Below are positions 5,158-28,205 of a stretch of DNA of 50,074 nucleotides, piece by piece. Location: contig SVPH01000020.1 in the NCBI GenBank assembly GCA_015065965.1, forward strand, positions 1 to 50,074, given 5' to 3'. The notes beneath the pieces are model-generated. The model searched no databases. It was given only the letters and a program-made list of their open reading frames with translations, and was not told the DNA's origin. A program made the translations under genes and the position numbers. The DNA comes from Oscillospiraceae bacterium. GTDB taxonomy: Bacteria; Bacillota; Clostridia; Oscillospirales; Acutalibacteraceae. The stretch's first letter is position 1. Each line of letters opens with the position of its first letter.

Positions 5158-6119
5158 CCGGTATTTATGAAGTTCTCGGTGTACCCTTTGGCTTTGTACT
5201 CAGACTTATCTATGATACAATCGGTTTTGGCAACTATGCCATTGCGATTGTTTTGCTGACTTTATTTGCAAGAATTCTTATGATTCCGTCATCTGTCAGC
5301 CAGCAGAAGGGTATGGTCAAAACACAGCGAATCCAGGCAAAAATCCGTAAAATTCAAACTAAATATGCAGGAAATCAGCAGAAGATTCAGGAAGAAACCA
5401 ATGCTCTTTATCAAAGAGAAGGTTACAATCCCATGGGTGCAGGCTGTGCCCCCATGCTTATTCAGTTTGTTCTGCTTTTCGGTCTTATCGGCGCTATTTA
5501 CTATCCTCTGAGCAATTTCCTCTATGACAGTGAAATTACGAAGGAAGAAATTTCGCTGCTCACTAAGGCTGTTACAGACCTTGGCTTAACGGGTAACACA
5601 AAGAGCACCCATCTTGTTGAACTTATTATTATTCAGAACATTGATTCATTGCAGAATATTGCAGGCGTAAGCGAAACTGCTTATGAAGCAATAAAAGGCA
5701 TCAACTTCAATTTCTTCGGCCTTTTCTCACTCGGCGATATTCCCATGAATCACAAAGAAATCCATGTTATATGGGTTATTCCCGTGCTTTCCTTCCTTTC
5801 ATCAATGGCAACGGGTCTTTATTCACAACGCAAACAAAAACAGAACAATCCTGCTATGGCAAGTAACGCTATGATGACAGGCTGTATGACTTTCGGTATG
5901 CCCCTGTTCTCACTTTATTTTGTTGTTAACTACCCTGCAGGTATCGGTATTTACTGGATTGCGTCCAGTATTTTCGGATTCCTTTCAACAGTTATCATCG
6001 GCCACTTCTACAACCCCAAAAAGATGATGGCAAGGCTTATGGTTGACGAAACGGTTGAACGCCGTTCAAAAGAAAACAGCATTAAACTTGCCGCCGAAAG
6101 AAAGGAAAAAAAGAACTAA
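5154..6119 (+). CDS. yidC: Membrane insertase YidC/OxaA family
   Basis: YidC inserts and folds membrane proteins. This is the Gram-positive short form (321 residues, no large periplasmic domain). Hydrophobic segments are visible near residues 5-25 and 25-40, 95-115, 200-220 and 245-290. A Lys/Gln-rich cytoplasmic loop follows the second segment ([21 protein letters not shown]), with an Arg in RILMIP in the position of the hydrophilic-groove arginine. The tail is Lys-rich. GGAGG lies 7 bases before the ATG at 5154, and the longer reading from 5082 runs through yidD in another frame. No lipoprotein signal is seen at the start, unlike the SpoIIIJ type of Bacillus. Confidence 0.93.
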
Positions 6120-6142
6120 CACATTTCAGGTGGTGAAACATT

Positions 6143-6985
6143 TTGATAAAAGAAGCAATCGGCACAGGTTCTACTATTGACGAAGCAAAAGATGCTGCTC
6201 TCAAGGCTCTTGCAGCCCCTGAAGATGCAGATATAAAATATGATGTTATCGAAATGCCCAAAGCAAAGGTTTTTGGTCTTTTTGGCGGATCACCCGCTAA
6301 AATGAGAGCGTATTATGAGGTTGAGGATGATCCGTTTGTAAAGGCAAAAGAATATATCCTCACAATCATCAAAAGCCTCGGCATTGAGGAAGCAACAATC
6401 GAAGTTGAAGCAGATGATGAAGATGTACGCATCTCAATCAGTTGCGGTGATGATTACGGCTCGGTAATCGGCAGAAGAGGCGAAACTCTTGATGCTATCC
6501 AGTATCTCACACGCCTTGTTATCAACAGAGGTTCAGAGGATTACAAGAGAGTTTCAATCAATGTAGGCAATTACAGAGAAAAGAGAGAAAACACTCTCAG
6601 ATCTCTCGCTCGCAAGAATGCCGCAAAGGTAAGAAAGTACGGCAGAAATGTTGTGCTTGAGCCCATGAACCCCTATGAAAGAAGAATTATTCATACAACC
6701 GTTCAGGAAATCGAAGGCGTTACCTCACATTCAGTAGGCAGCGACGGCGACAGAAAGGTTGTTATCACTCTTGAAGAAGGCGTGAAGCCTACAAACGGCG
6801 GCGGTTATAATAACAGAGGCCGCGGCGGATATAACAAGGGCGGCAACAGAGGCGGCTACCGCAACGGCGGTAACAGAGGCGGTTACAGAAGAGAGAATTC
6901 AGATGCACCCGCAGCCCCCTCAAGAGCACCCCGTTCAGATTCCGCAGGTTCGCTCTACGGCAAGATTGAAATTAATAAGGACTAA
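6143..6985 (+). CDS. khpB: RNA-binding protein KhpB/Jag (EloR) with RGG-rich tail
   Basis: A 280-residue protein with a Jag_N domain (about 1-50), a type II KH domain with the loop GSVIGRRGETLDAIQYL (about 105-125), and an R3H domain with NPYERRIIH (about 175-183). In other Firmicutes KhpB/EloR pairs with KhpA and affects cell elongation and mRNA fate. From about residue 220 there is a Gly/Arg/Asn/Tyr-rich tail with repeated RGGY-type units (GGYNNRGRGGYNKGGNRGGY). The start is TTG with AGGTGG upstream. It is the last gene before a strong terminator and sits after yidC, as usual. Confidence 0.9.
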   Translation: MIKEAIGTGSTIDEAKDAALKALAAPEDADIKYDVIEMPKAKVFGLFGGSPAKMRAYYEVEDDPFVKAKEYILTIIKSLGIEEATIEVEADDEDVRISISCGDDYGSVIGRRGETLDAIQYLTRLVINRGSEDYKRVSINVGNYREKRENTLRSLARKNAAKVRKYGRNVVLEPMNPYERRIIHTTVQEIEGVTSHSVGSDGDRKVVITLEEGVKPTNGGGYNNRGRGGYNKGGNRGGYRNGGNRGGYRRENSDAPAAPSRAPRSDSAGSLYGKIEINKD

Positions 6986-6990
6986 TACAA

Positions 6991-7021
6991 AACCCTCGGT
7001 TGAAAAACCGAGGGTTTTTTG
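6991..7021. terminator. Intrinsic terminator after khpB
   Basis: The stem AACCCTCGGTT/AACCGAGGGTT has a 3-base loop and is followed by TTTTTT on the plus strand. On the other strand a shorter T run follows the stem, so it may also stop transcripts coming from the aro operon. Confidence 0.85.
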
Positions 7022-7054
7022 ACTGCCATCAAGCGGTATGTCAATTTTATAGAG

Positions 7055-7112
7055 TAGGGCGGGATGCCTTCATCCCGCCGTTTTTTCGGCGGCTTGTGGG
7101 CAAGCCGCCCTA
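7055..7112. repeat. Double-hairpin palindromic element (REP-like)
   Basis: Two 9-bp hairpins, GGCGGGATG-CCTT-CATCCCGCC and GGCGGCTTG-TGGG-CAAGCCGCC, are separated by a T run and bounded by TAGGGCGG ... CCGCCCTA. The first hairpin plus TTTTTT would also end plus-strand transcription. The design resembles short interspersed palindromes of Clostridia genomes. Only one copy is in the window. Confidence 0.6.
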
Positions 7113-7124
7113 CACGGGTTAAAT

Positions 7125-7550
7125 TTATTTACTCAACAAATGGTCAATTGCTCTGAGGTAACCGTCAAAGCCGAGACCTATGAAGGCTTTTTCGCACGCC
7201 ATGCCGGCGTATGAGATTTGCCTGAAATCTTCTCTTGACGAAACATCGGAGATATGCACCTCAACGGCAGGCAGAGCAACCGATTTGAGTGCATCAAGAA
7301 TAGCAATGCTTGTGTGAGTGTATGCTGCGGGATTAATGACGATTCCGTCAAAGTTATCGTATGCTTTCTGAATTTTATCAACAATATCTCCTTCGTGGTT
7401 TGACTGAAAAAGTTCAACCTCAGCATCTTTTTCGGCGGCATAATCCGATATTAGGGAGCAGAGTTCGGCATAGGAATTTTTGCCGTATATGCCGGGTTCT
7501 CTGATGCCGAGCATATTTATATTAGGGCCGTTGATTACAAGGATACGCAT
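7125..7550 (-). CDS. aroQ: 3-Dehydroquinate dehydratase, type II
   Basis: AroQ converts 3-dehydroquinate to 3-dehydroshikimate (third shikimate step). The 141-residue product shows the type II signatures: ILVINGPNINMLGIREPGIYG with the catalytic Tyr, QSNHEGDIVDKIQ, VINPAAYTHTS, and VEVHISDVSSREDFR with the catalytic His. Its length is normal for the small dodecameric enzyme. The first 16 bases overlap the end of the aroE-aroK fusion. It is the last gene of the operon. Confidence 0.96.
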   Translation of the reverse strand: MRILVINGPNINMLGIREPGIYGKNSYAELCSLISDYAAEKDAEVELFQSNHEGDIVDKIQKAYDNFDGIVINPAAYTHTSIAILDALKSVALPAVEVHISDVSSREDFRQISYAGMACEKAFIGLGFDGYLRAIDHLLSK

Positions 7551-8758
7551 GATAAAATCCTCCTTACGGTGATTTTGGGGTCAGGGTCAACTTCTACAGT
7601 GAAGTCAGCAGTTTCATTATATAAAGGCAGCCTTTGTGCCAGCATTTTTTGCAGAGTTTCGGCATCTTTCGAAAGCGGTCTGCCGTCTGTTGCAAGTGTA
7701 TCAACAGGTGCTTTGAGGAAGATAACCGTTGAATTTTCTTTAAGAGCAATGCGGTTTTCTTTTCGCAGAATTGCGCCGCCGCCCGTTGCAATAATATTAT
7801 TTGTGCCTTTGCCGGCGTTTTTAACGGCTTCGGTTTCACGATTGCGAAATTCGGTTTCTCCGTATTTGGCAAAGATATCGGGAATGTTTTCACCCGATGT
7901 TTCAACAACAAGGGCATCGGTGTCAAGGCATTTTCTGCCTGTTTTTTTTGAAAGCAGAGCCGCGCAGGTTGATTTGCCGCAGCCCGGCATGCCGATAAGC
8001 ACAATGTTTTTTTGCTCGGATATGATTGCATCATAGATTTCGTCAATGCGTGAGAGCGGAATGCTTTTGCCTGTGAAGATTTCAGCGGCACGCAAAGCCT
8101 GAGCAACGAGCATATAAAGACCGTTTATGCAGTCGATGCCGAGTTTCTGCGCATCAAGCAGGAAAACCGTTCTTGCGGGATTATAAATAAGGTCGAGCGC
8201 TTTTTTGCATTTTGTGAATTTTGAAAGGTCAATGAGCCTCTCGCCGTTGTTGGGGTACATGCCGACGGGCGTTGTGTTGACGATTATATCCGCATCATAG
8301 TGGCGGCTGATGTTGCCGTAATTATCCTCACCCGAGCGAGAAACAACAACAATTTCTTTTGCACCTTCGTCACGGGCAACATGATAAACCGTAAGGCTTG
8401 CACCGCCTGAGCCGAGGATGAGAACTTTTTTATCTTTAAAATCGCAGTTGCATTTTTTTGCCATATAAAGAAAACCGAAATAATCCGTGTTGTCGCCGTA
8501 AAGTGAGCCGTCACTGCGGCGGACAATAGTGTTTACACTGCCGACTTTTTCTGCAGTTTCGGAGCGCTCATCGCAGCGGTTGAATGCTTCGATTTTATAT
8601 GGAATAGTTATGTTGAAACCATTGAGCCTTGTGTCAGAGAAAAATTCATCAAGATTTTCCGGCTCGGTAGGGTAGAGTTTGTATTCGTAGTCGCACAGAT
8701 GTGCGTGTATCTGCGGCGAAAGGGAGTGACCCAACTTTCTGCCTAAAAGACCAAACAT
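7535..8758 (-). CDS. Fused shikimate dehydrogenase - shikimate kinase (AroE-AroK)
   Basis: One 407-residue frame carries two consecutive enzymes of the pathway. Residues 1 to about 245 are AroE: LGRKLGHSLSPQIH at the start, NGFNITIPYK with the catalytic Lys, DNTDYFGF, and the NADPH loop LILGSGGASLTV. Residues about 250-407 are AroK: LIGMPGCGKSTCAALLSKKTG (P-loop), the DTDALV shikimate-binding Asp, FRNRETEAV, and ATGGGAILRKENR. The join (SEQKNIVLIGM) is short, with no frameshift or internal stop. The start is the ATG at 8758 with GGAGG 9 bases upstream inside the end of pheA. Readings from further upstream run through pheA in another frame. The fusion channels steps 4 and 5 into one polypeptide. 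Confidence 0.93.
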   Translation of the reverse strand: MFGLLGRKLGHSLSPQIHAHLCDYEYKLYPTEPENLDEFFSDTRLNGFNITIPYKIEAFNRCDERSETAEKVGSVNTIVRRSDGSLYGDNTDYFGFLYMAKKCNCDFKDKKVLILGSGGASLTVYHVARDEGAKEIVVVSRSGEDNYGNISRHYDADIIVNTTPVGMYPNNGERLIDLSKFTKCKKALDLIYNPARTVFLLDAQKLGIDCINGLYMLVAQALRAAEIFTGKSIPLSRIDEIYDAIISEQKNIVLIGMPGCGKSTCAALLSKKTGRKCLDTDALVVETSGENIPDIFAKYGETEFRNRETEAVKNAGKGTNNIIATGGGAILRKENRIALKENSTVIFLKAPVDTLATDGRPLSKDAETLQKMLAQRLPLYNETADFTVEVDPDPKITVRRILSCVSL

Positions 8759-8762
8759 AGCA

Positions 8763-9899
8763 TCAGTCCTCCGTATAACTGCCGAGGTAACTGAATTGCT
8801 CGGCATCGTGTTCAAGTTCGTTAAGCAGAACTTTGAGGTTATCCGAGTAAACGGAAGCATCAATATCAAAATAGAACATGAACTCAAAGTTTGTTCCGGG
8901 GAGAGGACGGCTTTCAAGTTTTGTCATGTTAAGACCAAGAGCGGCAAAACTTGAGATTATGTTATAAAGCGAACCGGGTTTATGGGGAATGGTCATCATT
9001 ATGCTGGTTTTGTTTGCCCCGGGATAAATTTCAAGATTTTTGGAAATGCAGATAAAACGGGTGTAGTTGTTGTCGGTGTTCTGAATTCCGCTTTCAACGA
9101 TGCGAAGCCCGTAAAGTTCTGCGCAGTCTTTGGAACCGATTGCGGCGCAGTCTTTTCTGCCGCTGTTTGCAACCATTTTTGCAGCAGCCGCAGTGTTTTC
9201 ACAAACGGTGATTTTTACGCCGAGCGATGCAAGATATTCCGAGCACTGATTGAGCGCCTGCTCATGTGAAAATACTTCTTTGATATCGCTGAGGGCAACG
9301 CCATCAGGCGCAAGAAGTGTATGACCGATAAATAGTTTAAGGCTGTGGGTAATGTAAAATTTGTATTTGTTCATCAGGTCATATACTTTATTTACCGAAC
9401 CTGCAGTGCTGTTTTCAACCGGGAGAATTCCGTAGCGGCAAAGTCCGCTGTCAACGGCTTTGAAAACATCTTCAAAGCCCGAAAAATACATGATTGAGGG
9501 ATAAGTGAACATCTTGTCGCATGCGAACTGCGAATATGCACCCTCAACGCCCTGACATGCAACAGAGGCTCTCTCGGGTCTTGCAACGGGAGTGCCCGAG
9601 GTTGCTTCATCAAGCATTTTAGAAAATTTTGACTGGGGATAAATTATCCTTTTCTGATACGAACGGCTCAGTTCAAAAATAGTCTGGTAAAGAGTTTTTG
9701 TGTAACTCTGCAGTTCTTCGGAAACATTTGCCGTTGCGTTATTGAGAACTTCTCTTTCACGCTGTCTGTTGAAAACGGGAACATTGTTCTCCTGCTTATA
9801 TTTACCGACAAGGGCGGCGGTTTTCATTCTTTCTTCAAAAAGTTTTGTGAGTTCGCCGTCAATCTCATCTATTCTGTTTCTAAGTTCAAGTAAATCCAT
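8763..9899 (-). CDS. pheA: Bifunctional chorismate mutase / prephenate dehydratase (P-protein)
   Basis: It makes phenylpyruvate from chorismate by way of prephenate. The 378-residue product has an AroQ-type chorismate mutase at 1-85 (LLELRNRIDEIDGELTKLF), a prephenate dehydratase domain at about 110-285 (QGVEGAYSQFACDKMF, GILPVENSTAGSVNKVYDLM, and the catalytic TRF in NNYTRFICIS), and a C-terminal ACT domain at about 293-370 (HKPGSLYNIISSFAALGLNMTKLESRP). The ESRP motif is linked to Phe binding, so feedback inhibition by Phe is likely. It lies between aroC and the aroE-aroK fusion. Confidence 0.95.
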   Translation of the reverse strand: MDLLELRNRIDEIDGELTKLFEERMKTAALVGKYKQENNVPVFNRQREREVLNNATANVSEELQSYTKTLYQTIFELSRSYQKRIIYPQSKFSKMLDEATSGTPVARPERASVACQGVEGAYSQFACDKMFTYPSIMYFSGFEDVFKAVDSGLCRYGILPVENSTAGSVNKVYDLMNKYKFYITHSLKLFIGHTLLAPDGVALSDIKEVFSHEQALNQCSEYLASLGVKITVCENTAAAAKMVANSGRKDCAAIGSKDCAELYGLRIVESGIQNTDNNYTRFICISKNLEIYPGANKTSIMMTIPHKPGSLYNIISSFAALGLNMTKLESRPLPGTNFEFMFYFDIDASVYSDNLKVLLNELEHDAEQFSYLGSYTED

Positions 9900-9930
9900 T
9901 TTTATACCTCTTTATAAAGAAATATGCTTT

Positions 9931-11004
9931 TTATAAAAGAAAATCTGCTATCACAACCGCCGCTGCCGCTTCAATGCAAGGCACTGCTCTGGGAACGATG
10001 CAAGGGTCGTGCCTGCCGCCGATGACAAGGCTTTCTTCTTCACCTGTTTCAGTGTTGACCGACTGCTGCTGCATTCCGATTGACGGGGTGGGTTTTACCG
10101 CACAGCGGAAAACGATGGGCATGCCTGATGAAATTCCGCCGAGGATGCCGCCGTGGTTATTGGTCGCAGTTTTGATTTTGCCGTTTTCACTTATAAAATC
10201 ATCGTTATTTTGGCTGCCCGTAAGTCTGCTGCCGTCAAAGCCCGAGCCGAATTCAATTCCCTTGATTGCAGGAATGCCGAATATAGCCGCGGCAAGTCTG
10301 TTTTCTATTCCGTCAAAAATCGGGTCGCCTATGCCGACGGGCATACCGATAACGGCGCATTCGATTGTTCCGCCGACGGAATCGCCGCTGCCTTTTGCAT
10401 CGTAAATCTCTTTGCGCATGAGTTCGCCCTGTTTATCGTTAATAACGGGGAATGCTTTTACAAGCAATGAATCAAAATCATCTGCGCTGACATTAACGGG
10501 GTCAAATTGCTTGTCATCAACTTTACCGATTGAGGAAATGTGTGCGCCTATGCGTATGCCTTTTTCCTCAAGCATCTGCATGCAGACAGCGCCGGCAAAG
10601 CAGAGCGGAGCGGTGAGTCTGCCGCTGAAGTTGCCGCCGCCGCGGATATCGTTAAAGCCGTTGTGCTTCATCATGGCGGCAAAGTCGCTGTGAGAGGGTC
10701 TCGGCAGTTTGCGCAGTTTATCATAATCGCCTGAGCGAGTGTTAGTGTTTTCAATAACTGCGCAGAGTGGTGCGCCGCAGGTTATGTTATCAACAACGCC
10801 TGAGAGGATTTTTACTTCGTCAGCCTCTTTTCTCGGTGTTGAAAGGTCATTTTTGCCGGGGGCACGCCTTGCCATGAATGCGGCGGTTTTTTTGGTATCA
10901 ATCTTAAAGCCTGCGGGCAGACCGTCAATGATAACTCCGATTGCCTCGGAATGCGACTGACCGAAAATAGTTATTTTAATTTTGTTTCCGAAATTACAGG
11001 ACAC
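9931..11004 (-). CDS. aroC: Chorismate synthase
   Basis: AroC makes chorismate from EPSP with reduced FMN as cofactor. The 357-residue product has FGQSHSEAIGVIIDGLPAGF at the start, MARRAPGKNDLSTPRKEADEV, the HSDFAAMMKHNGFNDIRGGGNFSGRLTA region that carries signature residues, and GGRHDPCIVPRAVPCIEA near the end. No flavin reductase domain is fused. It overlaps the end of aroA by 11 bases, so translation is coupled. Confidence 0.97.
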   Translation of the reverse strand: MSCNFGNKIKITIFGQSHSEAIGVIIDGLPAGFKIDTKKTAAFMARRAPGKNDLSTPRKEADEVKILSGVVDNITCGAPLCAVIENTNTRSGDYDKLRKLPRPSHSDFAAMMKHNGFNDIRGGGNFSGRLTAPLCFAGAVCMQMLEEKGIRIGAHISSIGKVDDKQFDPVNVSADDFDSLLVKAFPVINDKQGELMRKEIYDAKGSGDSVGGTIECAVIGMPVGIGDPIFDGIENRLAAAIFGIPAIKGIEFGSGFDGSRLTGSQNNDDFISENGKIKTATNNHGGILGGISSGMPIVFRCAVKPTPSIGMQQQSVNTETGEEESLVIGGRHDPCIVPRAVPCIEAAAAVVIADFLL

Positions 11005-12214
11005 GGGCGTTTCCTCCCAACTTGTTATAATCTTTAAAAAATGCGGGGTATGATTTGTTGACCGCTTCGGCGTTGCGTATTATAACATCGCCTTCGCATC
11101 TGACGGCCGCAACAGCCGCCGCCATTGCGATTCTGTGGTCATGGAACGACAACGTTTCGCCGCCCGAAAGGCTTTTTTTACCGCGGATTATCATGCCGTC
11201 ATCGGTTTCGGTAATATCTGCGCCGAGCGAGCGGAGCATTTCGCAGGTGGTCTGAATTCTGTCGCTTTCTTTTATGCGGAGTCTTTCGCCGTTGAAAATA
11301 ACGGTTTCGCCCTCGGCGGTTGCCGCAATTGCTGCGATAACTGGCACTGCATCGGGGATATCCGCCGCATCAACTCTGCAGCCGTGCAAAGCGGAAACAT
11401 CGGCTTTGTAATTACCGCTGATTTTTGCGCCCATGCGTTTGAGCACTTCGATAATCGCCTTGTCGCCTTGGGTTGAATAGGGATTAAGCCCCGTAACCTC
11501 TGCACCCATGCACAGAGGAAAAGCGGCGTTTGACCAGTCGGCTTCAACCGTGAAGCCGCAGCCCGTGAGTGGACTTGGATTTATATAAAACGTATTATTT
11601 TCTTCTTTAATATCCGCGCCGAAAGTGCGCAGAACCTGTAATGTTATATCAATATAAGGTCTTGACTGAACGGGCGGAAGCAGATTGATTTTGCCGCCGC
11701 CGAGATATGCCAGAGCCATGAGCAGACCCGTTACGAACTGCGAACTTACATCGCCGCGCAGGGTGAATTCGCCTGCCATGATTCTGCCCGAAACATTGAG
11801 CGGAAAATCATCCGAAATGTATGCACCCATGCGGATTAACTCCTCTTTTAAGGGGGAAAGTGGTCTCTCGGGCAGCCTGCCCGAGCCGTGGATTTCGGTA
11901 TTTATGCCCAGAGCGCAGATTACGGGGAGCAAAAAACGGATTGTTGAGCCGCTTTCGCCGCAATCAATGGATGCCTTTTTGGGAATATTTTCAATTGGCG
12001 TTACGCTGTAGAGCGTACCCTCCTGCTCAATAACCGCGCCGAGATTGCGCAGGCAGTTGAGCGTTGCTTCGATATCCGCAGAGGTTGTGTTTATTCTGAT
12101 TTGGCTTTTACCTTTTGCAAGGCAGGCGCAGATTAATGCTCTGTGCGCAAAAGATTTTGAGGCAATGCCCTCAATGCTGCCCGATATCGGCGCAGGAGTG
12201 ATTTGAATATCCAT
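10994..12214 (-). CDS. aroA: 3-Phosphoshikimate 1-carboxyvinyltransferase (EPSP synthase)
   Basis: AroA joins phosphoenolpyruvate to shikimate 3-phosphate. The 406-residue product has the SKSFAHRALICACLAKG N-terminal substrate motif, CGESGSTIRFLLPVI in place of the more usual CGNAGTAMR-type loop, GRLPERPLSPL, and the C-terminal RIKESDRI and DHRIAMAAAVAA motifs. The altered CGESGS loop is typical of class II-like EPSP synthases of Firmicutes and may affect glyphosate response, by inference. It overlaps aroC and follows aroB across an 84-base gap holding a palindromic repeat. Confidence 0.95.
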   Translation of the reverse strand: MDIQITPAPISGSIEGIASKSFAHRALICACLAKGKSQIRINTTSADIEATLNCLRNLGAVIEQEGTLYSVTPIENIPKKASIDCGESGSTIRFLLPVICALGINTEIHGSGRLPERPLSPLKEELIRMGAYISDDFPLNVSGRIMAGEFTLRGDVSSQFVTGLLMALAYLGGGKINLLPPVQSRPYIDITLQVLRTFGADIKEENNTFYINPSPLTGCGFTVEADWSNAAFPLCMGAEVTGLNPYSTQGDKAIIEVLKRMGAKISGNYKADVSALHGCRVDAADIPDAVPVIAAIAATAEGETVIFNGERLRIKESDRIQTTCEMLRSLGADITETDDGMIIRGKKSLSGGETLSFHDHRIAMAAAVAAVRCEGDVIIRNAEAVNKSYPAFFKDYNKLGGNARVL

Positions 12215-12244
12215 TATGTTTTAACTCCGTGAAAATTTTGTCTT

Positions 12245-12292
12245 ACACCTCATCCGTCACTGCGGTGACACCTTCTCCTCAAGGAGAAGGCA
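12245..12292. repeat. Palindromic repeat in the aroB-aroA gap
   Basis: Two small palindromes in tandem: GTCAC-TGCG-GTGAC (12256-12269) and CCTTCTCCT-CA-AGGAGAAGG (12271-12290). It looks like an interspersed Clostridia repeat inserted inside the operon. There is no T run for termination, so read-through is expected. Confidence 0.5.
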
Positions 12293-12298
12293 GGAAGA

Positions 12299-13348
12299 TT
12301 ATGTATATTCTGCAATCTGATAAAGAGTTTCAACGGGGATTTTCTTGAGAATGCAGTTGCCCATAACCTCGGGCACAACAAAATTGATTGTGCCGCCTGT
12401 GCGCTTCTTATCCGAGAGGGCAACGTCCGCAAGGTCGTTCGGCGCAAAGCCGCATTCAACGGGCAAACCGTTATTTTTGTTTGCCTCAATAATTGCCTGC
12501 GTGCAGTCCTCATTGCTCCAGCCGAGAGCGGCGCTTGCCTTTGCGGCAATAACCATGCCGATTGCAACGGCACTGCCGTGAGAGATTTCAAAGTTACTGC
12601 ATTTTTCGATTGAATGAGCCATTGTGTGGCCGAAATTGAGCAGTTGCCTGTCGCCTTTGTCAAACTCGTCCTTTGCAACGACATCTCTTTTAAGTTCAAC
12701 GCAGCGTGCAATGATGCTTTCAATATCTGATTTTACATCTCCGCTTTGCACCTTGTCAAATAAATCCTTATCAAAAATAACGCCGTATTTGATAACTTCT
12801 GCCATGCCGTCTGCAAAGATGCTCTCGGGCAGAGTGCCAAGCGTGCGTGTATCGCAGAGCACAAGTTCGGGCTGATAGAATGCGCCCATGAGGTTTTTGC
12901 CTGCAGTAAGGTTAACTGCTGTTTTGCCGCCGACGGAAGAATCAACCGCCGCAAGCAGTGTTGTGGGAACCTGAACAAACGGAATGCCTCTAAGGTAAAG
13001 CGATGCGGCAAGACCGGTCATATCGCCTGTTACGCCGCCGCCGAGAGCAACTGCAAAATCGCTCCTTGTGAGTTTGTTTTCCGCCATAAATTCAAGCAGA
13101 GCAAAGAGAGTTTCTTTGCTCTTGGATTCTTCGCCTGCGGGGAAAATAAACTCAATTGTTTCTATTCCTGCGCTCTCAAGGCTTGACTTTGTTTCGGCAA
13201 GCCAGAGGGGCGCAACGTTGCTGTCCGTTACGATAACCGCCTTGCTTTTGCCGAGGAGCGAAACGCATTTCTCCCCGAGTGAGGGGAGAATGCCGCTGCC
13301 GATAATAACCTCATATTCTTTTGAAGCGTTAACTTTGATAATTTTCAT
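12299..13348 (-). CDS. aroB: 3-Dehydroquinate synthase
   Basis: AroB cyclises DAHP to 3-dehydroquinate using NAD and a divalent metal. The 349-residue product has the NAD-binding PAGEESKSKETLF and ALGGGVTGDMTGLAASLYLRG, followed by PTTLLAAVDSSVGGKTAVNL, and the metal ligands within KYGVI, LLNFGHTMAHSIE and HGSAVAIGM. Its length is normal. It lies 9 bases after tyrA. Confidence 0.97.
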   Translation of the reverse strand: MKIIKVNASKEYEVIIGSGILPSLGEKCVSLLGKSKAVIVTDSNVAPLWLAETKSSLESAGIETIEFIFPAGEESKSKETLFALLEFMAENKLTRSDFAVALGGGVTGDMTGLAASLYLRGIPFVQVPTTLLAAVDSSVGGKTAVNLTAGKNLMGAFYQPELVLCDTRTLGTLPESIFADGMAEVIKYGVIFDKDLFDKVQSGDVKSDIESIIARCVELKRDVVAKDEFDKGDRQLLNFGHTMAHSIEKCSNFEISHGSAVAIGMVIAAKASAALGWSNEDCTQAIIEANKNNGLPVECGFAPNDLADVALSDKKRTGGTINFVVPEVMGNCILKKIPVETLYQIAEYT

Positions 13349-13357
13349 TTTCGTTTC

Positions 13358-14188
13358 CTACTTTGCCTGTTTTTTGCTGTCGGTGCCTTCTTTAAGCAGG
13401 GCAACAAGCCCCTCTCTGTCATCCGCTTTGAGAGCGGCGCTGTATTCGCTGAGCCTTTCAACAAGGAAGTCAATTTCAGCGCAGAGATTATCTTTATTTT
13501 CAAAGAAAAGTTCCGACCACATCTTTTCGTTGAGTTTTGAAACCCTTGTCAAATCTCTGTAACTGCCTGCGGAAAAGCCCTTTTGCTTGACCGCCGTATG
13601 GCTCTTTACATAAGCGTTTGAGATTATGTGAGGAAGTTGAGATGTGAATGCTATTACTTTATCATGTTCTTCAGGAGTTGTAAAGTTAATTGCGCCGAAA
13701 CCTGCATCATTAAGAGCATTTCTGAGTTTTTCAAGAATGCGGATATCCGTGTTTTCTTTGGGAGTAATAATCATTGTTGCATTTTTGAAAAGATTGCCCC
13801 TTGAAGCGTTGAAGCCCGAAAACTGAGTGCCTGCCATGGGATGAGCACCGATGAAAATAAAGCCGTTTTCCTCTGCAAGTTTTTCGCATGGAGTACAAAT
13901 CGGTCTTTTAACACCGCCGCAGTCCGCTACAATGGCGTCTTTTTTTATTTTTGATGCGTTTGCCTCAACAAATTCAACGGTTGCCTGCGGATAAAGAGCA
14001 ATGAATATCATATCCATTTCGCCGATATTTTCGTCCGTCATTTCGTCCTTGATTGCCTCAACCATTTTTGCTGCAAGGAGAGAACTTCTGTTACGGTCTG
14101 CACCGTAAACCTCGTGCTTGCCGCTTTCGGTCAGCGCCCTTGCAAGAGAGCCGCCGATAAGACCCAAGCCGACTATTCCGATTTTCAT
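13358..14188 (-). CDS. tyrA: Prephenate dehydrogenase
   Basis: TyrA oxidises prephenate to 4-hydroxyphenylpyruvate for Tyr synthesis. The 276-residue product has an N-terminal Rossmann motif (GIVGLGLIGGSLARAL), the GAHPMAGTQFSGF segment with the catalytic His, and the helical C-terminal dimer domain. There is no fused chorismate mutase and no ACT domain, so feedback control by Tyr through an ACT domain is not expected. It follows aroF by 25 bases in the operon. Confidence 0.93.
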   Translation of the reverse strand: MKIGIVGLGLIGGSLARALTESGKHEVYGADRNRSSLLAAKMVEAIKDEMTDENIGEMDMIFIALYPQATVEFVEANASKIKKDAIVADCGGVKRPICTPCEKLAEENGFIFIGAHPMAGTQFSGFNASRGNLFKNATMIITPKENTDIRILEKLRNALNDAGFGAINFTTPEEHDKVIAFTSQLPHIISNAYVKSHTAVKQKGFSAGSYRDLTRVSKLNEKMWSELFFENKDNLCAEIDFLVERLSEYSAALKADDREGLVALLKEGTDSKKQAK

Positions 14189-14213
14189 AATATCACCTTT
14201 TTTCAGCGGTTAC

Positions 14214-15221
14214 TCAAAATTTTGTCATGATTTCTCTGATTGCGTTTGCTTCCTTAACAACCTTTGCAAATTCCTCGGGGCGCAGAGCCTGAGGACCGTC
14301 GCACAGAGCATGTGCAGGGTCGTTATGAACTTCAATCATCAGTCCGTCTGCGCCTGCGGCTACGGCTGCAAGGGCGAGAGGACGAACCATTCTTGCCATG
14401 CCTGCTGCGTGACTGGGGTCTGCAATAACGGGCAGATGAGTTTTCTCTTTAAGCAGGGCAATTGCGGAAATATCCATTGTGTTTCTTGTGTAATGCTCAA
14501 AGGTTCTTATGCCTCTTTCGCAGAGCATAACTTTGTTGTTGCCGCCTGCCATGATGTATTCTGCGCTCATGAGAAGTTCTTCCATTGTTGCGGCAAGACC
14601 TCTCTTGAGAAGAATGGGTTTATCCGTTTTGCCGAGTTCTTTGAGAAGTTCAAAGTTCTGCATATTCCTTGCGCCTACCTGAATTACATCAACATTTTCA
14701 AACAGGGGCAAGTGAGAAAGGTCCATGATTTCGGTGACGATGGGTGTGCCTGTTTCTTCCTTTGCTTTCTGAAGAAGTTCAAGACCCTCTGCTCTCATGC
14801 CCTGGAAAGCGTAGGGTGATGTTCTGGGTTTGAAAGCACCGCCTCTGAGAAGGTTTGCGCCTGCCGCCTTGATGTCATTTGCGATTGAGCAAATCTGCTC
14901 GGGTGATTCAACGGAACAGGGACCTGCGATAAACTGGAAGTTGCCGCCGCCGATTTTATGACCGCAGATATCAATAACGGTATCATCGGGATGAAATTTT
15001 CTGTTTGCGTTTTTATAAGGCTCGCTGATACGGGCAACATTGCTTACAATATTAAGACCTTCAATGAGGTCGATATCAACATGGCTTGTGTCGCCTACAA
15101 GACCGAGGATGGTTTCATACTGACCTTCGCTGCGGTGAATTTCAAGATTAAGGCTTTTAAGCCATTCAACAAGATTCTGTAACTGAACTTCGTCTGTTCC
15201 TTTTTTAATAGATACAATCAT
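14214..15221 (-). CDS. aroF: 3-Deoxy-7-phosphoheptulonate (DAHP) synthase, type I-beta
   Basis: It condenses PEP with erythrose 4-phosphate, the first committed step. The 335-residue product has an N-terminal ferredoxin-like regulatory domain of about 70 residues (MIVSIKKGTDEVQLQNLVEW), known in relatives such as Thermotoga to bind Tyr or Phe. The barrel follows, with FIAGPCSVES, GAFKPRTSPYAFQG, KRG, and DPSHAAGM near the end. GGAGG lies 9 bases before the ATG. It is first in the eight-gene aro operon and directly follows the leader-peptide attenuator. Confidence 0.95.
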   Translation of the reverse strand: MIVSIKKGTDEVQLQNLVEWLKSLNLEIHRSEGQYETILGLVGDTSHVDIDLIEGLNIVSNVARISEPYKNANRKFHPDDTVIDICGHKIGGGNFQFIAGPCSVESPEQICSIANDIKAAGANLLRGGAFKPRTSPYAFQGMRAEGLELLQKAKEETGTPIVTEIMDLSHLPLFENVDVIQVGARNMQNFELLKELGKTDKPILLKRGLAATMEELLMSAEYIMAGGNNKVMLCERGIRTFEHYTRNTMDISAIALLKEKTHLPVIADPSHAAGMARMVRPLALAAVAAGADGLMIEVHNDPAHALCDGPQALRPEEFAKVVKEANAIREIMTKF

Positions 15222-15255
15222 TTTAAATTACCTCCGAAAATTTAGCAACCGTTTT

Positions 15256-15300
15256 TTCAAAAAAATGAACCCCGCAGTGTAAATTTCACTGCGGGGTTTT
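15256..15300 (-). terminator. Intrinsic terminator in the aroF leader (attenuator)
   Basis: On the minus strand a perfect 12-bp stem, AACCCCGCAGTG/CACTGCGGGGTT (15298-15287 with 15276-15268 and neighbours), has a 7-base loop and is followed after two bases by seven Ts. It lies between the aroF promoter and the aroF start, so it must be bypassed for operon expression. AAACCC at its base (15299-15294) can pair instead with GGGTTT at 15341-15336, a possible antiterminator. Confidence 0.85.
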
Positions 15301-15348
15301 ATAAACCTCATTAATGTTTTTCAGCAAAACTTACCAAACCCTATCAAA

Positions 15349-15402
15349 TTACTTGATAAAGTAAAAGTAAAAATATGCTGCTGAAAAAACATTCTTAATC
15401 AT
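15349..15402 (-). CDS. Aromatic-rich leader peptide of the aro operon
   Basis: A 17-codon frame reads MIKNVFSAAYFYFYFIK and then TAA. AGAGG lies 9 bases before its ATG. Seven of its 17 codons are Tyr or Phe, six of them in one run. It lies 35 bases downstream of the -10 element and upstream of the intrinsic terminator. This is the arrangement of classical attenuators such as pheA or pheST leaders in enterics. A 14-bp helix can form between codons 4-8 (15393-15379) and 15326-15313, with the Tyr/Phe codons in its loop. Too short for ordinary gene calling. The peptide itself probably has no other job. Confidence 0.75.
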   Translation of the reverse strand: MIKNVFSAAYFYFYFIK

Positions 15403-15436
15403 TGAAAATAACCTCTGTTGCTTTGAATATGGGTAT

Positions 15437-15465
15437 AGAATAGCACTCTGAAAACCGTTTGTCAA
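15437..15465 (-). promoter_or_regulatory. sigma-A promoter of the aro operon
   Basis: The minus strand shows TTGACA (15465-15460), a 17 bp spacer and TATTCT (15442-15437). Transcription would start near 15430, giving a leader of about 210 bases that holds the leader peptide and terminator. Confidence 0.8.
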
Positions 15466-15513
15466 GGCTTTTTTGCAAAAAACTTTAGCGATTTAAAGTT
15501 TTTAATCGTCAAA

Positions 15514-16038
15514 TCAAAGATTTTCAACTTTTATCTGGCACATTTGCATTGCTTTAAGCGCATTTTGGTGGCTTTCGGGGGTGACGCCTGCGCAGCAGGA
15601 AGCATCAACAATAACGGGAATTTCGGGCAGGAAAGCCTTGATAATCATAGCGTTTGAGATAACGCAGATATCGGTGCAAAGACCTATAAGGGTTATGCTT
15701 TCGATTTTTTCGTCATAAGTATCGTATGCTTTTAAAAGTTGACCGAGAGCAATGCTGCCGAAGGTCGGTTTGTCAACGGGTTCTTCTTTGCGAAGAGCAT
15801 CGAGCGATTCGTTTATCTGCCAGCCGTCAGAGCCTTTTATGCAGTGCTCAACGGGCAGATTTTTGCCCTCCTGAGAAGAAAGATAATCTTCTTCATGAGT
15901 ATCACGGGTGAAGATGACTCTGCCGTCAAAGCCTTCGATTTTTGTCTTTACTGCAGGGAGAATTGCAACAGCCTCTTTTGTGCCGAGAGCGCCGTCAATA
16001 AAATCATTCTGCATATCAACTACAATTAAAAATTTCAT
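15514..16038 (-). CDS. Isochorismatase-family cysteine hydrolase, nicotinamidase-like
   Basis: A 174-residue cytoplasmic hydrolase of the isochorismatase-like fold. The N-terminal LIVVDMQNDFIDGAL carries the catalytic Asp. FTRDTHEEDY followed by VEHCIKG gives the D-x-H...H metal site found in nicotinamidases. GLCTDICVISNA carries the nucleophilic Cys, and KPTFGS the active-site Lys. Nicotinamidase (nicotinamide to nicotinate, NAD salvage) is the best guess because the metal ligands are kept, which true isochorismatases lack. The symbol pncA is not assigned because substrate specificity is hard to read. It lies 12 bases after the pseudokinase-sortase gene, so the two are probably co-transcribed. 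Confidence 0.8.
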   Translation of the reverse strand: MKFLIVVDMQNDFIDGALGTKEAVAILPAVKTKIEGFDGRVIFTRDTHEEDYLSSQEGKNLPVEHCIKGSDGWQINESLDALRKEEPVDKPTFGSIALGQLLKAYDTYDEKIESITLIGLCTDICVISNAMIIKAFLPEIPVIVDASCCAGVTPESHQNALKAMQMCQIKVENL

Positions 16039-16050
16039 AATTTATCACCT

Positions 16051-17901
16051 TTATTCAAACAAATCGGGGTCATTGATATATGGGTTTTGGATGCGTTTTG
16101 CATCATAATATGCCTGTGGGAATTTGGGGTTTTCGTTCATGACGGGAAGAGATGCGTTGATTTCTTCGCTTTCGCCGTTACGCAGCAGTCTGCCTACAAC
16201 AACAAGCCTTGCATCCTCAAAATCATAGCAGCAGGTGGATAGGGTAACGATTTTGTCAGTTTCATTTATATCAACGCCTGTTGTGTAAAGTTTTCGTTTG
16301 TCAACCTCGGCAACATAGTCCATGAATTGCGAGTTGCCTGCGGCTGTAAATATATAATTGAAAACATGATTGTTATCGTCAATTGCCTTGCTGTTGGAGA
16401 TAAACACGGCATAGATTTTGAATTTATATTCGCCGTATAAGGTGTTGACCGTTATAATCGGCGCTTTCAGAAAACCGTCGATTTCCCTGTACTGTTCCAG
16501 CGTGCCGAAAATTTTATCGTCATGGCGCATGTTGTGACCGTAGATAATTGTGTTGCGGCTTAGAGATATCAAAGAATTGCGGTAATCAAAGAAAGGAGCA
16601 CCGTAATTCGTGCTGTTGCCGTAAAAATCCCTGCGTTCATAATAAACATTGTCTTCACATTGAACAACGGAAAAATCAATGTTCATTTCGGGTATGGAAA
16701 TCCAGCCCGCAAAATCGGGATTTGCGGCATAGAGTTCCGCATATGCCGGATTCATGCCATCCGGAAACTGAACATCGGGATGTTTTGCTCTTATATCTTC
16801 CCAAGGGTCTTTTTCTGCATTTGTTGTCTGAACAACCATTGATGCTAAGTCGGATGCCTGTTTTTGCTCTCGGTAAGGTTCGATTACATAGTAGTTCAGC
16901 AGAAACGCAAGGCTTGCAATCAAAGTAATTGTGGCTGTGACCAGCACTATACGGCGTATAATTTCTCTGTGGGGAAGTTTTTCTTTTCCGGCTTTTTTAC
17001 CGCTGATATCAAAAAGGAATTCTTCCGCTGAAGAATATCTCTCGGTTTTATCAAGAGCAAGAGATTTTTCGATAATTTTTTTCTCGTTTTCGGAAAGGGA
17101 TGCAGGCAATTTAAGTGCTGCCCCTTTCTTTCTTTGTTCGGCGGAAGGAGGCAGAGTGCCCGTTACGGCTTCGTAGAGAACAGCACCTATTGAATATATA
17201 TCTGTGTAAGTGCCGCAATGCTTTGCACCGAGTTCTTTTTCGGGCGCATCAAACGGCGAGAGCATGCTTTTGGGCGGATAGGTATAGCCTGTTAAAGAAG
17301 TGATTTTGTTATCATTTGTGATAATGGAATACGGCGATATACAGCCGTGCCATTTGCCTGATTTTTCGAGTTTGCAAACGCAGTCGGTAACGGGAGCGAG
17401 CAGGGCAACCGCCTTTGAAAACGACATCTTTTTGCCGTTGCCTATAAGTGATGACAGCGGAGTGCCGGAACTGATTTTGCTTACATAGTATATGGTTGAA
17501 TTTTCCGCAAAGCAGTCTGCGAATTCAAGAACACTGATTTTTGATACGGCACAGAGTTTTACAAAATGTGCGTAATATGCAGCAATCTCTTTGTCACCTC
17601 TAACGCTGCATTTTTCGTCATGATATTTGATGATGTATTCATCAGGCAGGCGATACATAAGCCTTGTTGGCAGATATTCATATATTTTAACTCTTTTGCG
17701 CTCCTGAGTATCCAGCGCATAATAAACAAGAAAGGAATTTGCCCTTGAAAAAGCACCGCCAAGCACATATCTGCCGCCGAGTTTTGTGCCGACGGGCAGT
17801 GAATATTCAAAATCGTTTTTGTTTGTACCGTTATAACCGCATTCAGGGCAGACTTTAACGGAATCGTCGCATTCGGACAGGCAGTTTATGCAGCGTTTCA
17901 A
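16051..17901 (-). CDS. Zinc ribbon - pseudokinase - TM - class B sortase fusion
   Basis: A 616-residue single-pass membrane protein. Residues 4-21 are a zinc ribbon (C4, C7, C18, C21). Residues 40-300 are a protein-kinase-like fold of the VAIKEYFP type: K72 is kept in RVKIYEYLP, but the Gly loop is degenerate, the HRD-to-N loop reads HGCISPYSI (185-193, no catalytic Asp) and DFG is replaced near 204 by LTG. It should therefore be a pseudokinase. Residues 317-340 are the only clear TM helix. Residues 375-575 are a sortase with H456 (IIYGHNM), C557 (TLSTC) and R565, and the spacing suits class B. The expected topology is kinase domain inside and sortase outside. The start is TTG with GGAGG 6 bases upstream. 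No LPxTG- or NPxTN-type substrate was seen in the window. Confidence 0.88.
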   Translation of the reverse strand: MKRCINCLSECDDSVKVCPECGYNGTNKNDFEYSLPVGTKLGGRYVLGGAFSRANSFLVYYALDTQERKRVKIYEYLPTRLMYRLPDEYIIKYHDEKCSVRGDKEIAAYYAHFVKLCAVSKISVLEFADCFAENSTIYYVSKISSGTPLSSLIGNGKKMSFSKAVALLAPVTDCVCKLEKSGKWHGCISPYSIITNDNKITSLTGYTYPPKSMLSPFDAPEKELGAKHCGTYTDIYSIGAVLYEAVTGTLPPSAEQRKKGAALKLPASLSENEKKIIEKSLALDKTERYSSAEEFLFDISGKKAGKEKLPHREIIRRIVLVTATITLIASLAFLLNYYVIEPYREQKQASDLASMVVQTTNAEKDPWEDIRAKHPDVQFPDGMNPAYAELYAANPDFAGWISIPEMNIDFSVVQCEDNVYYERRDFYGNSTNYGAPFFDYRNSLISLSRNTIIYGHNMRHDDKIFGTLEQYREIDGFLKAPIITVNTLYGEYKFKIYAVFISNSKAIDDNNHVFNYIFTAAGNSQFMDYVAEVDKRKLYTTGVDINETDKIVTLSTCCYDFEDARLVVVGRLLRNGESEEINASLPVMNENPKFPQAYYDAKRIQNPYINDPDLFE

Positions 17902-27914: not shown

Positions 27915-28205
27915 AAAATAAAAGTCCTTGACAGAAATCTCTCTCTGTCAAGGACGAATAAACATTATCCGTGGTGCCACCTTGATTCGCTGCCGAAGCC
28001 GCGCACTTTGCAGGATACTTACATATCCCCGGCAACTAACGTATGCCGACACGTTGCAGAATACTCAACGCACATGTATGCGTTTTTGACTGCACCCTCA
28101 GCGGCCCATTTGACGAATTGTTTCTTACCTGACTCTCAGCAACGCAGGCTCTCTGTGAAGGCATCAACGCCTTTATCTCCGCTTCAACGGTTTGGTATAT
28201 TAATT
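27915..28205 (-). promoter_or_regulatory. Tryptophan T-box riboswitch leader of trpB
   Basis: The minus strand carries AAGGTGGCACCACGG (27983-27971 and flanks), a match to the T-box sequence AGGGTGGNACCGCG. The variable base is C, which pairs with discriminator G73 of tRNA-Trp. Upstream, the candidate specifier UGG (28108-28106) sits in an AAA-UGG-G context before the stem I 3' side. Downstream, GTCCTTGACAG/CTGTCAAGGAC plus TTTTATTTTT (27953-27915) is the terminator. Uncharged tRNA-Trp would stabilise the antiterminator and switch trpB on. Confidence 0.88.

Follow-up and report, generated by a model that had tools for sequence, protein, structure and literature searches.

A predicted Tyr/Phe leader-peptide attenuator before the aromatic amino acid genes of an Oscillospiraceae bacterium, with related leaders across its order

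T-boxes and repressors are the mechanisms usually invoked for the amino acid operons of Firmicutes, and the attenuators of Escherichia coli follow a four-segment logic. In Corynebacterium glutamicum, an AroR leader peptide before aroF was reportedly described by Neshat et al. in 2014. AroR is described as a short peptide containing Phe-Tyr-Phe before an operon with DAHP synthase, with attenuation by ribosome stalling (PMC11802643, PMC4046766), and the leaders of E. coli pheL/pheA, pheST and trpL as peptides with end-product codons that act by attenuation (PMC11802643). In Acholeplasma, uORFC-13-1 is described as a frame upstream of aroF that has one or more Phe codons and lies beside an apparent intrinsic terminator (PMC8632094). 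Ribosome-mediated attenuation in a Firmicute has experimental support for the rli60 leader of ilv-leu in Listeria monocytogenes (PMC5864092), His-leader attenuators have been predicted by comparison in three Firmicutes lineages (PMC9413887), and attenuators of Actinobacteria have also been treated (PMC1262725).

A leader of this general kind is found in the window, by which we mean the whole 50,074-nt stretch of DNA analysed (contig SVPH01000020.1 of assembly GCA_015065965.1, an Oscillospiraceae bacterium). Its minus strand holds, from 15470 to 7125, a promoter, a short frame, hairpins and a terminator, followed by aroF-tyrA-aroB-aroA-aroC-pheA-aroE/aroK-aroQ (Table 1). The leader very probably controls transcription before aroF by ribosome-mediated attenuation in response to charged tRNA-Tyr and tRNA-Phe. 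This reading rests on sequence and computation, which show the parts and that they are conserved, two pairings that exclude each other, and a fold that changes with the codon at which a modelled ribosome stands; from these we infer translation of the frame, stalling, kinetic control and the direction of the response.

Compared by description with these accounts, the leader resembles AroR in placing a Tyr/Phe peptide before an operon with DAHP synthase, and differs in that AroR belongs to another phylum, has three aromatic residues and is reported to respond to limitation of Phe, not Tyr. It shares a Phe-codon frame and a terminator before aroF with uORFC-13-1, an element described from 24 examples in one genus and environmental sequences, in a passage that describes no antiterminator. 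Unlike the E. coli leaders as there described, mixed Tyr/Phe codons would here govern the common pathway, and the terminator loop is part of region 3. The rli60 leader, again by description, differs in its branched-chain codons and operon, and the predicted His leaders, likewise classical attenuation, differ in their histidine codons and his operons. The kind of attenuator is known; the aroF leader family, its spread and its re-coding appear unreported as far as searches of open-licence PMC papers reach (subscription papers lie outside this scope), in which we recognised no report of this leader in Clostridia.

Table 1 Leader parts and aromatic genes on the minus strand of the window
Feature	Positions	Strand	Description	Basis
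Promoter, sigma-A type	15437–15465	-	TTGACA 15465–15460, 17-nt spacer, TATTCT 15442–15437; TG before -10 (extended -10)	10/12
Ribosome-binding site of leader peptide	15412–15416	-	AGAGG	read in sequence; alignment A1
Leader peptide frame	15349–15402	-	MIKNVFSAAYFYFYFIK; ATG 15402 to TAA, stop codon 15351–15349	sequence; alignment
Sensing run	15358–15375	-	codons 10–15, Tyr-Phe-Tyr-Phe-Tyr-Phe	alignment; codon scan
Region 1	15378–15393	-	5' arm of protector helix, within codons 4–9	fold; pair counts
Stop-codon hairpin	15338–15362	-	10 pairs, stop codon in loop, contains GGGT	fold; 96.0% of cells paired
Region 2	15313–15333	-	15327–15313 pairs region 1 (protector); 15333–15322 pairs region 3 (antiterminator)	folds; pair counts
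Region 3	15280–15291	-	last 5 nt of terminator 5' arm plus 7-nt loop, CAGUGAAAUUUA	folds; pair counts
Intrinsic terminator	15259–15298	-	12 pairs (15298–15268), 8 G-C, then CA and seven T	scan; fold; alignment
aroF	14214–15221	-	DAHP synthase (B. subtilis type), first gene after leader	NF006421 484.7 bits; TIGR01361
tyrA	13358–14188	-	prephenate dehydrogenase	PF02153; PF20463
aroB	12299–13348	-	3-dehydroquinate synthase	TIGR01357
aroA	10994–12214	-	EPSP synthase	TIGR01356
aroC	9931–11004	-	chorismate synthase	TIGR00033
pheA	8763–9899	-	chorismate mutase-prephenate dehydratase	PF01817; PF00800
aroE-aroK	7535–8917	-	shikimate dehydrogenase and shikimate kinase fused in one frame	PF08501; PF01202
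aroQ	7125–7550	-	type II 3-dehydroquinate dehydratase	TIGR01088

The enzymes encoded behind the leader lead from DAHP synthase to both prephenate dehydrogenase and prephenate dehydratase, which makes Tyr and Phe the end products of the route. Of the earlier note's claim of an aro operon behind the leader, the gene content was borne out by profile, which identified eight shikimate–Tyr–Phe genes; gene order and spacing suggest that aroF through aroQ form one operon and one transcript. An 84-nt gap precedes aroA, and a promoter-like site within aroB (12759–12730, 11/12 matches) could drive aroA and the later genes. The actual start of aroE-aroK probably lies within the annotated frame. Elsewhere in the window, trpB (TIGR00263) is located behind a T-box (27947–28196, minus strand, E 3.1e-19), which had been recognised previously and scores 85.5 bits, under the Rfam cut-off of 93. 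An isochorismatase-like gene precedes the leader, and 12 nt from it lies a gene (16051–17901, minus strand) for a 616-residue protein in which a partial protein-kinase-like match is followed by a class B sortase domain.

The promoter, ribosome site, Tyr/Phe frame and 12-bp terminator with seven Ts are all located on the minus strand where the earlier note had read them, and its first helix (15393–15379 with 15326–15313) is present in the minimum-energy fold. In this unconstrained fold, region 1 (15393–15378) is paired with 15327–15313, accompanied by a short helix (15371–15366 with 15335–15330), the hairpin 15362–15338 and the terminator 15298–15268. The leader fold has an energy of −51.1 kcal/mol, compared with −29.65 (sd 3.76) for shuffles (z −5.7), and the aroF terminator has the most pairs among 24 terminator-like sites in a scan of 6000–17000. 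On removal of region 1 and the terminator 3' arm, 15333–15322 pairs with 15291–15280 over 12 bp. The GCUG of region 2 is used in both protector and antiterminator, and the two pairings therefore exclude each other. Across 15 leaders the antiterminator pairs in 99.4% of 179 cells, versus 31–51% for slid versions; within the genus it shows one-sided changes only, none on both sides, with 8 of its 12 pairs invariant. Terminators do not require a particular loop sequence, and the terminator loop is almost invariant across the leaders, probably because it pairs with region 2. The features of an attenuator found at this locus are a short frame with a ribosome site between promoter and first gene, a run of codons for the end products (Tyr/Phe, with tyrA and pheA among the downstream genes), an intrinsic terminator ahead of the first gene and, by computation, a conserved, mutually exclusive protector and antiterminator.

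Conservation was followed in alignment A1, which comprises 15 leaders (12 genus loci together with L019, L020 and L021) and omits two more diverged genus leaders, L015 and L016; L017 and L018 have no leader. The start codon and the Tyr/Phe run are retained in all 15, with one Tyr-to-Cys change (L013), and the pattern that the earlier note had named as contrary evidence, a terminator kept without its peptide, did not appear. L019 is without two codons of the run, three of the 15 leaders end at a different stop, and length changes within the run are multiples of three (minus 6 in L019, plus 3 in L021). The promoter is similar in the genus alignment. The protector–hairpin–terminator structure pairs in 89.2% of 641 cells and contains 14 pairs changed on both sides; for the terminator, 91.6% of cells are paired and 7 such pairs are found. 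All 500 shuffles fell short of this structure in pairing, in both-side changes and in covariation score; the number of pair types, a weak covariation control, was matched by 52 of 500. In the 12 genus leaders L003–L014 the frame ends 13–14 nt before region 2, and in many distant leaders it extends 20–55 nt into or past region 2, so that a finishing ribosome may itself cover region 2, a second route to the same end.

The dependence of the fold on ribosome position was modelled with the RNA ended at 15279, 15277 or 15276 and one ribosome footprint per codon, in three footprint sizes. The antiterminator probability in this truncated RNA was 0.00 without a ribosome, 0.54–1.00 with the A site at codons 8–13, 0.12–0.99 at codon 14 and 0.01–0.21 at codon 15; from codon 16 to the stop it was at most 0.09 (0.02 or less at the stop codon), and the protector was favoured from codon 15 to the stop. 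In the model, then, covering region 1 opens the RNA, which closes again towards the end of the aromatic run. The antiterminator was also high at codons 5–7 in most settings, ahead of the aromatic run, which indicates that the RNA alone does not single out aromatic codons. The finished terminator forms at equilibrium for each ribosome position modelled, and likewise when 15400–15345 is masked, a check proposed in the earlier note that failed to abolish it. With a ribosome at codon 10 and RNA ends at 15280, 15276, 15272 and 15268, the minimum-energy structure contained the antiterminator only at 15276. Since the complete terminator wins at equilibrium and the antiterminator appears only at this end, the decision must be kinetic and the time window short. 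A coarser measure, region 3 paired with anything upstream, was applied to 109 loci, for which a perfect-stem terminator and a frame were required. By this measure pairing rises at aromatic codons, relative to no ribosome, in 15/15, 33/40 and 43/54 loci, the latter two groups being distant loci; it is already at least 0.5 without a ribosome in 2/15, 27/40 and 28/54, and at least 0.5 at the stop codon in 9/15, 24/40 and 20/54.

Leaders with Tyr/Phe runs are found before aroF well beyond the genus. Of 96 aroF upstream regions, 65 contain a frame that follows a ribosome site and carries five or more Tyr/Phe within 8 codons; dinucleotide shuffles average 0.65 and the antisense strand gives 0. Together with leader conservation, this count supports the claim, already made in the earlier note, of a Tyr/Phe peptide frame coupled to a terminator before aro genes. 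The 65 comprise 15 from the 17 genus loci and 50 from the 79 named GTDB loci, a set made up of the best matches to the window aroF and not a random sample (the duplicate L023, identical to L007, was dropped). With the ribosome-site condition dropped, 59 of the 79 GTDB loci carry a Tyr/Phe frame, a figure without a shuffle control. By the strict test 31 of the 96 regions have no peptide, and 20 of these searched with Rfam matched no family, which suggests that no T-box stands in for the leader there. Trp joins Tyr and Phe in the leader peptides of L016, L057 and L070, which would suit sensing of all three aromatic amino acids. The aroF leaders read include those of Angelakisella massiliensis (L027), Sporobacter termitidis (L070) and Yanshouia hominis (L081). 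Tyr/Phe leaders before aroF also occur on Treponema and Treponemataceae MAG contigs (L038 and L059), through either horizontal transfer or wrong binning.

Within the genus, 17 of 45 genomes match the window aroF, one of them across just 45 residues, and the genus leader model R1 has matches in 16 of the 45; 13 of these 16 supplied training sequences, the other three being G008, G010 and G035. R1 finds 30 of 81 untrained loci at E below 0.01, all just upstream of aroF; away from the training sites it has one other match at this threshold, on the reverse strand of a locus used in training. A second model, R2, was built from 36 aroF leaders in an alignment (A3) that was fitted to R1 and leans towards the R1 structure. 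R2 matches 83 of 295 genomes of the order (62/225 of good quality; 50/149 genera) and 13 of 398 genomes of the phylum, the window's own included in both. The earlier note had held such attenuation to be unusual in Firmicutes, where T-boxes dominate; T-boxes are indeed common here (all 30 genomes searched have matches, 26 of them over the cut-off, and the window genome has 12), but this type of leader is found widely in the order. Among 58 loci that have a perfect-stem terminator and a frame, the fit of region 2 to region 3 has a mean z of −2.7 and that of region 1 to region 2 a mean z of −1.4, relative to shuffles that keep single-base content only; L050 in this set is an artefact that did not fold, without which the means are −2.77 and −1.46. 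Overlapping letters of region 2 serve both pairings in 52 of the 58. Among 43 thinned distant loci the locus's own region 3 is in the top 5% for 18 (2.15 expected), and a median of 7% of foreign region 3s beat it, the worst cases being L049 (65%) and L024 (49%).

Besides the window's own, R2 has 94 matches in the order, of which 69 were read, plus G107 as L248. Among the 69, a Tyr/Phe peptide precedes aroF in 52 and tyrA in 5, one lies before ilvB (L194), and 11, scoring 38.1–44.4 bits, fit no such peptide and gene. Nine of the 13 phylum loci are located before aroF and 4 fit nothing. At L174 aroF comes first, with 66% identity. The tyrA leaders (L168, L183, L184, L188 and L190) encode more Tyr than Phe in all five peptides, strongly so in three (5/4, 7/2, 9/1, 7/2 and 6/5), and four of these genomes also carry an aroF copy. 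In the four genomes with both leaders the aroF peptides have Tyr 17/Phe 25 and the tyrA peptides Tyr 29/Phe 10 (Fisher p 0.003, a post hoc comparison of genomes that are not independent). In G008, which has no aroF match, an element with the peptide MNNIFATAYFYFYFCSEK (L140, 2870–3022) lies before aroB-aroA-aroC.

The gene behind L194 is ilvB (TIGR00118); 50 loci matching its protein were fetched, of which we read 36, the best or close to the best. In 14 of these 36 regions a frame behind a ribosome site has six or more Ile/Leu/Val within 8 codons (0.60 in shuffles). The aroF-trained R2 finds 8 of the 36 at E below 0.01, all directly before ilvB, and the two highest-scoring (56.8 and 41.7 bits) were already among the order-search matches. 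Seven loci (L223, L248, L249, L255–L257 and L259) have Ile/Leu/Val-rich peptides before ilvB, 6 of which R2 finds at the same threshold. In L248 the parts are readable by eye: GCAGCGTAAAC, then GCGTTACGCTGC, then CCGCAGCGAACGCTGCGG. The window genome's own ilvB (L263) has no Ile/Leu/Val peptide in the 330 nt upstream. That a model trained on aroF leaders finds those of ilvB suggests their common descent, with convergence as the alternative. We lean towards the view that one RNA design has spread and been duplicated in the clostridial order and some relatives, its codon run being swapped to match the downstream gene. Such a re-codable scaffold would consist of region 1, a sensing run, a hairpin, region 2 and a terminator whose loop is the antiterminator target, with Tyr/Phe (in some cases with Trp) as the input before aroF, mainly Tyr before tyrA and Ile/Leu/Val before ilvB.

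The identity of the antiterminator is where the analysis departs from the earlier note, according to which release from the first helix's loop lets GGGTTT (15341–15336) pair with AAACCC (15299–15294) at the terminator base. Both motifs are present in the window, and in 15 leaders 77.8% of 90 cells pair, above every slid version; slid versions nevertheless reach up to 64%, the fifth of the six pairs is broken in 11 of the 15 leaders and two others in 4 each, and no pair is changed on both sides. In the fold, moreover, GGGT is engaged in the stop-codon hairpin with ACUU, letters from the last Tyr and Phe codons. This pairing was rejected as improbable in favour of the conserved competitor, the nearly invariant 12-bp pairing of 15333–15322 with 15291–15280.

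The role of the peptide admits other readings as well. TnaC and Erm leaders are peptides that stall the ribosome in response to a ligand, and nascent-chain arrest of this type, here in response to a free ligand, would suit a short peptide conserved in the genus ahead of a structured leader. We consider it very improbable: aromatic content is kept across loci while order and length vary widely, and related leaders are richer in Tyr before tyrA and carry Ile/Leu/Val runs before ilvB, so that codon sensing fits better. Slightly less credible still is that the U-rich tract is itself a signal, for RNA or protein, and that its sequence yields the peptide incidentally. The tract is partly paired in the stop-codon hairpin and the neighbouring helix, but a ribosome-site-led frame over the run occurs in +1 in 2 of 65 loci and in +2 in 1 of 65 (frame 0 being present by selection), run lengths change by multiples of three, and the ilvB copies carry different codons; the frame specificity of the run in the 65 loci led us to discard this candidate. 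Rfam leader families include those for Phe, Trp, His, Leu and Thr, and T-boxes are frequent in these genomes. Membership of such a family or of the T-box family (RF00230), or of any other known riboswitch, was nevertheless rejected, and we give it next to no credence: no Rfam covariance model reached its cut-off anywhere in the window, and the 17 sub-threshold matches up to E 5 at 14900–15700 contain no T-box. In the leader region His_leader reaches 19.3 bits on the other strand (cut-off 49) and the trpB motif RF04312 24.9 (cut-off 59). An Rfam search of 16 relatives gave one match, an SRP RNA.

In the preferred reading, ribosome-mediated attenuation by codon sensing, a ribosome supplied with plentiful Tyr and Phe would pass the six aromatic codons and reach the stop. 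Region 1 would then be uncovered, the region 1–region 2 helix and the stop-codon hairpin would form, and region 2 would be locked away, allowing the terminator to form and transcription to end before aroF. A ribosome waiting at the Tyr/Phe run would instead cover region 1 and leave region 2 free to pair with region 3 as soon as region 3 emerges; the terminator could not nucleate, and the downstream genes would be transcribed.

A predicted leader-peptide attenuator without an Rfam match thus lies before the gene for the first step of aromatic synthesis in a sizeable part of the order, many bacteria of which come from animal guts, and the leader seems to be re-used with other codons. The attenuator would explain how the shikimate genes are tuned to Tyr and Phe, and would provide re-codable amino acid sensors. 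With one scaffold and several inputs, the evolution of a codon-counting switch becomes directly testable. If the proposal is true, codon-counting would stand beside T-boxes in these gut bacteria as a major mechanism that has gone unrecognised.
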